From an uncultured Clostridia bacterium (GTDB lineage: Bacteria; Bacillota; Clostridia; TANB77; CAG-508): a DNA stretch of 33,377 nt. Under the pieces are notes generated by a model, which worked only from the letters and a program-made list of their open reading frames with translations, was not told where the DNA came from and did no database searches. This document shows, piece by piece, positions 2,992-25,319 of the stretch; within the stretch, counting starts at the first letter, position 1; each line of letters opens with the position of its first letter. Location: the NCBI GenBank assembly GCA_944390335.1, contig CALXQA010000005.1, positions 1 through 33,377 of the forward strand, given 5' to 3'. Both the position numbers and the translations under genes were made by a program.

Positions 2992-3940
2992 ATGGGAGAA
3001 GAAAATGAAAAAGTAGAATAAATTATAAATATACTAATAAAGAAGAAATTTTAAAAATATTAAATTTGATAGATAAAAATGGAAAAATTAAAAATGCAGG
3101 CAATGTTTTATTTGGAAAAAGTCCAAATGGTGATTTAAGGTGTGCAATTTTTGCAACAGAAGAAAAGTCAACTTTTTTAGATATGCAAGACTATAGTGGA
3201 AATATCTTTAAATTAATAGATATAGGAGAACAATATATAAGTAAAAATATAAGATGGAGTGCGAATTTTAATACAGGGTTTTGCAAGAGAAGATGTAGCA
3301 GAAATTCCAACGACAGCTATAAGAGAAGCATTATGCAATGCCTTTGGACATCGTTCTTGGGAGGAGCCATATAGTGTAAATATTGCAATTTATAGTAATA
3401 GAATAGAAATTGATAACCCTGGACACTTTACAGAGGAAGCAACACCAAATGATTATATAAATAAGCAAGAACCGTCAAGACCTAAGAATCCATTAATAGT
3501 AAAAATACTTTACTTGTCAGGAGAAATCGAAACATGGGGAACTGGATTAAGAAAAATATATAATGTTTGTAAAAAAGAAAATTTAAGAGTTGATTTTGAA
3601 GATAGAAAACTAGCATTTTTTGTCGTTTTCTATAGAAAAAATTTAGAAGCTTTAATTGAAAATACTGTAAAGGATTTAAGTAATAAAGTTGAAAGTAAAG
3701 TTGAAAGTAAAGTTGAAAGTAAAGTTGAAAGTAAAGTTGAAAGTAAATTGACTATAAATCAAAAGAAAATATTAGAATTGATAAATTTAGATCCCAATAT
3801 AATATTATCAGAATTATCACGGAAAAGTTGGAATATCCGTTACATCTGTATCAAATAATTTGAAAAAATTAACAGAAAAAGGGATAATAAAAAGAGTAGG
3901 TGCTGATAAAAATGGATATTGGAAAATTATTAGAAAATAG
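2992..3940 (+). pseudogene. Decayed AlbA_2/AAA_4-type (RecG-C-like) transcriptional regulator
   Basis: ATG 2992, with a strong AAGGAGG site, stops after nine codons. A second frame (about 3009 onward) carries family text such as NGKIKNAGNVLFGKSP, LRCAIFATEEKSTFLD and KNIRW. After a shift near 3260-3290 a third frame continues with EIPTTAIREALCNAFGHRSW and NRIEIDNPG, the ATP-binding-like domain of this family. It then has five copies of Val-Glu-Ser-Lys and half of a winged helix. A last shift near 3825-3840 restores the other half (SVSNNLKKLTEKGIIKRVG), ending at TAG 3938-3940. At least three frameshifts are needed, and the usual N-terminal AlbA_2 domain of roughly 200 residues is absent, so this is a truncated relic. 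An extended -10 (TGCTAAAAT near 2965) remains upstream. Confidence 0.8.
3685..3744 (+). repeat. 12-bp tandem repeat, five perfect copies
   Basis: The unit AAAGTTGAAAGT is repeated five times without a mismatch, in frame with the decayed regulator, where it encodes Lys-Val-Glu-Ser. Proteins of this family often carry such Lys-Val repeats between the ATPase-like domain and the winged helix. The copies are a likely site of slippage. Confidence 0.95.
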
Positions 3941-18504: not shown

Positions 18505-19350
18505 ATGAACGGAATATTAATAGTAGATAAAGAAATGGGAAAAACATCATTTGATATAATAAGAGATGTAAGAAAAAAATATAATATAAAAAAAGTAGGA
18601 CATATTGGAACATTAGACCCAATGGCAACAGGAGTACTACCAGTATTAATAGGAGAAGCCACTAAATTATCAGATTATTTAATAGAACATGATAAAGAAT
18701 ATATTGTAGAATTAGAATTAGGAATAAAAACAGACACTGGAGATATAGAAGGTAAGGTTATAGAAAAAAGAGAACTTAAGAAAATAGAAATAGAAGAAAT
18801 TGAAAAAATATTAAATACATTTATAGGAGAAAGTAATCAAATACCACCAATGTATTCTGCAATTAAAGTAAATGGAAAAAAATTATATGAAATAGCAAGA
18901 AAAGGGAAAACAATTGAAAGGACTCCTAGAAAAATTAATATTTACAATATAAAAATACTGGGCATTGAAAAAGACCAAAATGGATGTGCAAAAATAATAA
19001 AATACAAAGTAAATTGTTCAAAAGGAACATATATAAGAAGTTTATGTGAGGACATAGCAGAAAAACTTGGAACATGTGGATATATGAAAAACTTAAGAAG
19101 AACTAAAGTGGGAAAATTTACACTTAAGCAAAAAGATAAATTTTTAAGTATAGAAGAAATATTAAAAGAAAACTGTAGTTATGAATTAAAAGAAGGAGAA
19201 TATAAAAAGGTTGTCAATGGAGTAGGAATAAAAGTAAAATTACAAAATGGGATTGTAAAAATATATAATAAAGGAAATTTTATAGGAGTAGGAGAAGTAA
19301 AAAATAATATATTAAAAAGAAAAATAATATTAGATGAAAATAAAAAATAA
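18505..19350 (+). CDS. truB: tRNA pseudouridine(55) synthase
   Basis: 281 residues. The TruB catalytic motif GHIGTLDPMATGVLPV contains the nucleophile D38. LELGIKTDTGDIEG, QIPPMYSAIKVNGKKLYE and SKGTYIRSLCEDIAEKLG are the other standard blocks. It makes pseudouridine 55 in the T-loop of tRNAs. ATG 18505 follows AGAGGAAAAG. Last gene of the operon; the usual followers ribF and rpsO are absent. Its A-rich end is also, on the other strand, the U-tract of the convergent structured RNA. Confidence 0.95.
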   Translation: MNGILIVDKEMGKTSFDIIRDVRKKYNIKKVGHIGTLDPMATGVLPVLIGEATKLSDYLIEHDKEYIVELELGIKTDTGDIEGKVIEKRELKKIEIEEIEKILNTFIGESNQIPPMYSAIKVNGKKLYEIARKGKTIERTPRKINIYNIKILGIEKDQNGCAKIIKYKVNCSKGTYIRSLCEDIAEKLGTCGYMKNLRRTKVGKFTLKQKDKFLSIEEILKENCSYELKEGEYKKVVNGVGIKVKLQNGIVKIYNKGNFIGVGEVKNNILKRKIILDENKK

Positions 19351-19532
19351 AAATCCCCGCATTAGCCGTAGGATGAGAGAAATTTTAAGAGCCTGTTTTC
19401 ACAGGTGGGTGTCTTGTTAAATGCTCCTGGGTTTCTCACTTAAAAGTAAGCGTACACGCCACATTTAAAGGCGGACTCCCTTTAATCTAAATGTTGGTTC
19501 TAAAATTCCAATCTATACGCACCACGCAGGGA
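19348..19532 (-). ncRNA. Structured noncoding RNA, possibly raiA RNA
   Basis: About 180 bases visibly richer in G+C than everything around, with no open frame. I read it on the minus strand for three reasons. The closing stem (19526-19531 with 19355-19360) is fully paired with one U-G only on this strand; on plus it has an A-C mismatch. The hairpin at 19392-19405 then has a GNRA tetraloop (CCUGU-GAAA-ACAGG) instead of UUUC. And the 3' side runs into a U-rich tract (19353-19342). Other helices: 19461-19466 with 19489-19494 enclosing 19467-19471 with 19479-19483. The ends pair, with several internal hairpins, which fits my memory of the raiA motif of Clostridia, but 6S RNA or another class is possible. 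Structured RNA is well supported; the name is not. Confidence 0.65.
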
Positions 19533-19557
19533 AAATTATTATTAACTTCTTATTACA

Positions 19558-19563
19558 ATTATA
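19558..19563 (-). promoter_or_regulatory. Candidate -10 for the minus-strand structured RNA
   Basis: A perfect TATAAT on the minus strand, about 26 bases before the first paired base of the RNA. The -35 position at 17 bases holds only TTTTTT, so this is a weak prediction. Confidence 0.35.
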
Positions 19564-19593
19564 ATTTATCACATTTTATGAAAAAAATCAATA

Positions 19594-19646: not shown

Positions 19647-19761
19647 CATAAATATATGTCATTTTATTAGTAATTAAAACTATGTAATAATAAAAATTGA
19701 ATATAAAAAGCATATTGAAAAAAAGAAAGCAGTGTGATATAAAATAAATGGAGGAATGCAA

Positions 19762-20610
19762 ATGAAGAAAAAAACATTAATAATAGATGATATAAAAAAA
19801 GAAGAAAAAAAACAATTTATTATAAAACTTATAATTCTATTAGTTATTTTTGTAATATGTGTATTCATTGGAATATATATGTTAAACGTATATTTGGTAA
19901 ATAAAGAATTTTCAGAAGATATAGCTAAAATTTCAAAGTTAAATACAGAAACAATATTTAGCATAGATAGAATATATATGTATAGTAGTGCAGATGCTAA
20001 AAGCAATGAAACAAATAAACCAATATGGGATTTAGATATATTTCAATATACTGATATAGCACTATATATTAATAATAGAGAAGAAGAAGGAATAAGTTAT
20101 GAAAATACTATAAAAAGTCTAACAATAGATAATATTAAATTCAATGGATTAGAAACAGGGACAGCCTCTTTATACTATAAAAATGTAAATGATTTTGGAA
20201 AATTAAGTAATATAGAAGAAAATAAAATAGATAATAGCCTTAACTTCAACATTATAAACTCAGGAGAAGTAGATTATGCAAAACCAGAACTATATAGTAA
20301 TTGTCAAAATCCAATTACACTTGAGTATGTAAATTCAAATATGAAAGAAGAAACTAAAATATCAGATATATCATCACCTCTAATATATGATGGTAGTTTA
20401 TTAAAAAAAGGAGGAATATTACTTAATAACATAAAGTGTACAATCTCATTTAGAATAACAATTATAAATTACTATAATCAGAAGTTTGTAGCAACTGCAT
20501 ATATAGATGTGCCATTAGAAGATACATTTAATAATAATAGTATATATGATGGAAAAATGATAAAAAATATTGAAAATACTAATATTATAAAATTTATAAG
20601 AGTAGAATAA
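19762..20610 (+). CDS. Single-pass membrane protein of unknown function
   Basis: 282 residues from ATG 19762; an ATG at 19756 is only one base from the GGAGG site, so the later one, seven bases away, is preferred. A short Lys-rich cytoplasmic start is followed by one strong transmembrane helix (about 19-44) and then about 235 residues outside the membrane. That part is rich in Asn, Ile and Ser and contains four Cys-poor beta-like stretches and only two cysteines (in YSNCQNP and NIKCTI). There is no lipobox and no cleavage site. I recognise no domain. It precedes prmC by 52 bases in the same direction, with no obvious terminator between. Confidence 0.7.
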   Translation: MKKKTLIIDDIKKEEKKQFIIKLIILLVIFVICVFIGIYMLNVYLVNKEFSEDIAKISKLNTETIFSIDRIYMYSSADAKSNETNKPIWDLDIFQYTDIALYINNREEEGISYENTIKSLTIDNIKFNGLETGTASLYYKNVNDFGKLSNIEENKIDNSLNFNIINSGEVDYAKPELYSNCQNPITLEYVNSNMKEETKISDISSPLIYDGSLLKKGGILLNNIKCTISFRITIINYYNQKFVATAYIDVPLEDTFNNNSIYDGKMIKNIENTNIIKFIRVE

Positions 20611-24445: not shown

Positions 24446-25319
24446 GTAGATATAAAAGAAGCCACATTGTTATATGGCTATATATTTAAAAGTACATTTA
24501 CAAAATGTAGTCCAAATGGAATATTAAGAGATTTTTTAGAAGCAATACTAGATGTACATCTAAAAAATGTAGAAGTAATATATGCAGAAATACCTAAAGA
24601 TATATTAGAAGAAAAGGAAGCGTGTTAGATATAAGAGCAAAATTAGATGATGAAAGATTAATAGATATAGAGATGCAAGTAAAAGACGAAGGAAATATAT
24701 ACAACAGAAGCACAATATATATGAGTAAAAATATATCAACACAAATAAATGTAGGAGAAGATTACAAAAACTTAAAACCATCAATAGTAATAAGTATACT
24801 AAACTATAATAGATATAAAAGGAATAGTTATCATCCAATAGCCCATATGAAGTTTGAGAAAAGTAAAAAAGAAGAATATGTAGATATGAGATATAAAGGA
24901 GAAGATGAAAAAGCAACAGAAGTATTGGAGATGCACTTTATAGAATTACCAAAATTCATAAAGAAAAATCCAGAGATAAAGACAAAATTAGAAGAATGTC
25001 TGTACTTAATAGTAGGGAAGGAGGAAAAGATAAAAATGTCAAAGCTAGAAAATCCAGAAGTAAAAAAGCAATGAAATTAGTAGAAGAGATAATGTCAGAT
25101 CCAAAAGAAAGAGAAATAATAGAAGCAAAAGCGATGGCAAAATATAACTATAATTCAGCGATGGAATATACAAAAGAAACAGGAAGAAAATCAGGAATAG
25201 AAGAGCGGAAAAATAAAAACTGCAAAGAAAATGAAAAAAATGAAAATGGCAGATGAAGAAATATGTAAAATATCAGAGATATCAAAGAAGAGTTAAGAGA
25301 GGTATTAAATATAATATAG
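24446..25319 (+). pseudogene. Broken Rpn/PD-(D/E)XK nuclease-family transposase-like gene
   Basis: Four frames in turn carry one protein. About 24446 to TAG near 24626 reads KSTFTKCSPNGILRDFLEAILD. 24622 to 25074 reads GSVLDIRAKLDDERLIDIEMQV, the PD-(D/E)XK nuclease core with D...ExQ, then STIYMSKNI. After a shift near 25000-25070 comes KLVEEIMSDPKEREIIEAKAMAKYNYN. After another near 25200 comes KMADEEICKISEIS, and a last shift gives EELREVLNII ending at TAG 25317-25319. The order matches Rpn (PDDEXK_2) proteins linked to recombination and transposition. No start codon is left at the expected place. It is a dead copy; no ends or target duplications were found. Confidence 0.8.

Follow-up and report, generated by a model that had tools for sequence, protein, structure and literature searches.

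A single 6S RNA gene ends against truB in the genome of an uncultured Clostridia bacterium

The stretch of DNA analyzed here (the window, 33,377 nt from an uncultured Clostridia bacterium) almost certainly carries, on its minus strand, the single 6S RNA gene of the organism. 6S RNA is a well-known bacterial small RNA that keeps the main RNA polymerase in reserve. A scan with Rfam covariance models located a 186-nt gene of the ssrS/bsrA type at positions 19350 to 19535 (minus), where the match to RF00013 (6S RNA) spanned model positions 1 to 187 of 187 and reached 110.1 bits, the curated cut-off being 46.4 bits. This was the sole Rfam match of the whole window. An earlier, sequence-only reading had described a structured noncoding RNA at 19348 to 19532, only a few bases away from the covariance-model boundaries, and had called it raiA, a name that it offered tentatively, listing 6S among the families to check. 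The Rfam search of both strands that it had recommended returned 6S on the minus strand and only chance matches on the plus strand. When the surrounding 901 bases were scanned permissively, there were just two matches beyond 6S (Xist exon 1 and sR24, both plus strand), which we attributed to chance as they fell far below their cut-offs. The gene itself is ordinary and its family already known, and the assignment raises no weighty new question. What it provides is the replacement of a wrong label, raiA, by 6S RNA, together with a genus-level 6S set, including promoter motif, predicted product RNA, and gene neighborhood, that is useful for annotating 6S RNA in related uncultured genomes.

The RNA has the rod shape of the 6S type, with a closing stem, a large open central bubble, and an apical stem, and this architecture was supported by covariation. 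Within an alignment of 36 sequences, built from sequence alone, 25 of the 54 pairs changed on both sides, whereas shuffles gave 14.8 such pairs and slid partners gave 8 to 11, the latter control being somewhat generous given that the pairing scheme came from the Rfam match of the window itself. Covariation on the minus strand across relatives, the second check recommended for this region, was therefore found (25 both-side pairs versus 14.8). The 5′ arm of the closing stem (RNA nt 2 to 19; 19517 to 19534, minus), in which 8 of 17 pairs changed on both sides, faces a 3′ arm (RNA nt 167 to 184; 19352 to 19369, minus) placed by structure mapping and covariation. A U-G pair in this stem had already been pointed out from the single sequence; it joins RNA nt 8 and 178 and stays U-G in 35 of the 36 sequences, while a second one stays U-G in 34. 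Along the same lines, the GNRA tetraloop proposed at 19392 to 19405 (minus) is present at exactly those coordinates as the hairpin CCUGU-GAAA-ACAGG on the 3′ side of the central bubble. This hairpin is paired in all 36 sequences, with U-A, U-G, or C-G as the closing pair, and is also present in predicted folds of the free RNA.

By analogy with Bacillus subtilis 6S-1, we predict a template for product RNA at RNA nt 30 to 43 (19493 to 19506, minus), starting at C43. Both C43 and A44 were invariant in the 36 sequences, and GAACCAACA in the 5′ part of the central bubble was nearly so; the segment AUUUUAGAACCAACA, which contains the two invariant nucleotides, spans the 5′ side of the bubble and the neighboring stem strand. 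The product read from C43 would be 5′-GUUGGUUCUAAAAU, and short products would be expected to begin with GUUGGUUC. For the binding of polymerase, the synthesis of product RNA with subsequent release, and the ending of the transcript at the tail, we rely on analogy with the 6S family, and the sequence of events would be as follows. A housekeeping-type promoter would drive minus-strand transcription of the RNA, whose rod with an open central bubble would, as in the rest of the family, mimic an open promoter and bind the sigma-A RNA polymerase holoenzyme, holding the enzyme in reserve as growth slows. Once nucleotides return, the polymerase would copy the 5′ side of the bubble from about C43, and the product (predicted GUUGGUUCUAAAAU) would open the 6S RNA and free the polymerase. 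The U-rich tract in which the transcript would end adjoins the 3′ end of truB by chance.

Upstream of the gene, the minus strand carries a promoter at 19563 to 19591 (TTGATT, a 17-nt spacer, and an extended −10 element, TGA-TAAATT) whose layout is conserved, being detected in 41 of 44 related loci, while mononucleotide shuffles would give 0.5. The −10 element lies 27 nt from the start of the 6S model in the window and 4 to 57 nt from it across relatives. Therefore, trimming at the 5′ end is probable, with most members of the genus probably producing a 6S precursor whose short 5′ leader is then removed.

At its other end, the gene meets truB (tRNA pseudouridine synthase B; 18505 to 19350, plus), a convergent neighbor whose stop codon (19348 to 19350) touches the 6S 3′ end and has one base in common with the 6S model. 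The U-rich tail UUUUUAUUUUUU (19342 to 19353, minus), the likely 3′ end and termination tract judging from its T enrichment, is the complement of the last truB codons when read from 19353 to 19342, so both the convergence and the overlap described in the sequence-only reading hold. Across 44 loci, tail positions were 73% T versus 46% in the next 20 nt. The 12-nt tail was 74% T where truB lies at least 30 nt away (30 to 217 nt) and 80% T where truB touches or nearly touches it, a group that includes one locus (L010) with an uncertain truB end. Since the tract is about as U-rich far from truB, it belongs to the 6S gene and is explained by 6S alone; the stretch is shared because convergent genes are packed closely in an AT-rich genome and the final truB codons encode lysine and asparagine. 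No local terminator hairpins were found on either strand, and hence none for truB; any termination at the U-tract would thus depend on the closing stem.

A regulatory role of this face-to-face arrangement, in addition to the 6S identity, seems very improbable to us. Either antisense 6S RNA might arise through read-through from the truB operon, or a two-way end might be maintained in the shared U-tract. The former would couple the 6S level to how actively the nusA-infB-truB translation operon is transcribed, a consequence that we likewise regard as very improbable. The genus set comprises 28 loci with 6S, in 26 of which truB was detected, and the recurrence of the arrangement (truB faces 6S in 23 of these 26) speaks for such a role, as do the lack of a local truB terminator and the six loci in which at most 5 nt separate the truB stop from the 6S end, namely, the window, L003, L009 (gap of +5, from translation), L011, L015, and L025. 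However, across the genus, the spacing between the two genes takes values between −1 and +217 nt (an apparent 16-nt truB overlap into 6S in L010 is uncertain, its truB C terminus being divergent), the tail is equally U-rich away from truB, and orientation differs in four loci: truB is reversed in L005 and L012; truB, 6S, and the next gene are all on one strand in L027; and in L023, from another genus of the family, 6S comes after truB in the same orientation. Convergence of truB and 6S was found in none of the loci from outside the genus. We conclude that the description of one stretch as both a coding end and a terminator tract is true of the sequence, but that a maintained dual function is unsupported, given the lack of conserved spacing and the U-richness of the tract without truB nearby.

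On the far side of 6S, a gene on the plus strand (19756 to 20610) with an N-terminal membrane segment, as judged from its sequence, is kept beside 6S in the genus. It is preceded by a probable promoter of its own (TTGAAA, a 17-nt spacer, and TGA-TATAAA; 19715 to 19743, plus) that is shared in the genus, with the motif found 11 to 14 nt before the gene in L001, L003, L004, L009, L013, L018, L025, and L028. Therefore, read-through from truB across 6S would be unnecessary for its expression, which, in this part of the genus, is a further argument against the regulatory role. In the four loci with changed truB/6S orientation, this neighbor gene and/or prmC remain close, and the stretch from truB to prmC seems susceptible to local inversion.

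Along with its boundaries, the strand of the 6S RNA gene and its noncoding character, both claimed beforehand, were borne out. The 6S region has a G+C content of 41.9%, the highest among all 186-nt stretches of the window (mean, 26%; standard deviation, 4.5), with flanks at 19% and 14%, and, truB apart, the only frames of at least 20 amino acids touching it are of 25, 28, and 38 amino acids. The minus-strand fold (−53.3 kcal/mol; z = −2.78) beats nearly all shuffles. A functional plus-strand transcript, such as a 3′ extension of the truB mRNA, or a plus-strand element behind the fold would draw on the many Watson-Crick pairs that hold on either strand, but we consider it extremely unlikely: the plus-strand fold (−43.4 kcal/mol; z = −0.86) lies inside the shuffle range; over the 36 sequences, there are 220 G-U cells, which suit the minus strand alone, versus 78 A-C cells, with 88% of cells paired when read as minus and 81% when read as plus; Rfam matches on the plus strand are no better than chance; the conserved promoter sits on the minus strand; and the RNA of some relatives is not convergent with truB. 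Elsewhere in the window, two pairs of overlapping plus-strand frames were observed. Those at 3066 to 3374 and 3259 to 3858 (3066 to 3858 overall) look like one frameshift-broken gene, and those at 24622 to 25074 and 24996 to 25256 (24622 to 25256) look like the remains of another, by appearance of the PD-(D/E)XK transposase/nuclease kind.

The genome (1.47 Mb, 95% complete) contains one copy of 6S. Among the 56 genomes searched, 44 had a 6S RNA over the cut-off and 48 had a match at an E value of ≤0.001. Three of the missed genomes belong to the same genus and are incomplete, while outside the genus, weak or missing matches are found mostly in one family. Four loci (L056 to L059, in genomes G048, G053, G055, and G050, respectively) gave 6S matches of 43 to 46 bits, under the cut-off; they come from one family of the same order, further members of which had no 6S match, and a divergent 6S RNA in that family may be missed. 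In L046, the first ca. 30 bases of 6S appear twice in tandem (TTCCTGCGGTGTTCGAGAATAAGGCAGTAAAAA...), ca. 75 nt ahead of the 6S match, reflecting either a real duplication of the 5′ end or an assembly fault.

In order to put this gene into perspective, it can be compared with known RNAs. The raiA-motif RNA (RF03072), called ModT in Clostridioides difficile, is also structured, is about 200 nt long, and occurs in Clostridia, and this size and a Clostridia-like host are the only points in favor of the earlier label, which we reject with hardly any reservation: RF03072 had no match at an E value of ≤10 in the permissive scan of the locus, where 6S accounts for the entire length at 110.1 bits (a genome search was also without raiA, as were the control genomes, which makes it uninformative). 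With regard to the neighborhood, 6S adjoins rarA/uspA in lactic acid bacteria (PMC8414754), unlike the window, where it adjoins truB; a literature search found no report of a 6S-truB neighborhood, which is no proof of absence. B. subtilis and Clostridium acetobutylicum are reported to have two 6S copies (PMC8414754), compared with one in the genome studied here. The window RNA nevertheless resembles the B. subtilis 6S-1 type in its full-length covariance match and in its closing stem, central bubble, and apical stem. A collapse helix of the central bubble, described for B. subtilis 6S-1, was not predicted for the window RNA with the product footprint blocked; among the relatives, L026 had such a prediction. 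In B. subtilis 6S-1, the free RNA has a hairpin in the 3′ strand of the central bubble (PMC8876501), and the GAAA-loop hairpin of the window is the same element. The resemblance extends to the predicted template, which likewise has a C at its start and an invariant A next to it, and to the product, 5′-GUUCGGUCAAAACUA in B. subtilis (PMC12005410) and GUUGGUUCUAAAAU as predicted here. An adenine before the product start and a GG pair are given as hallmarks (PMC8414754), and the GG would be found at positions 4/5 of the predicted window product, compared with positions 5/6 of that of B. subtilis 6S-1.
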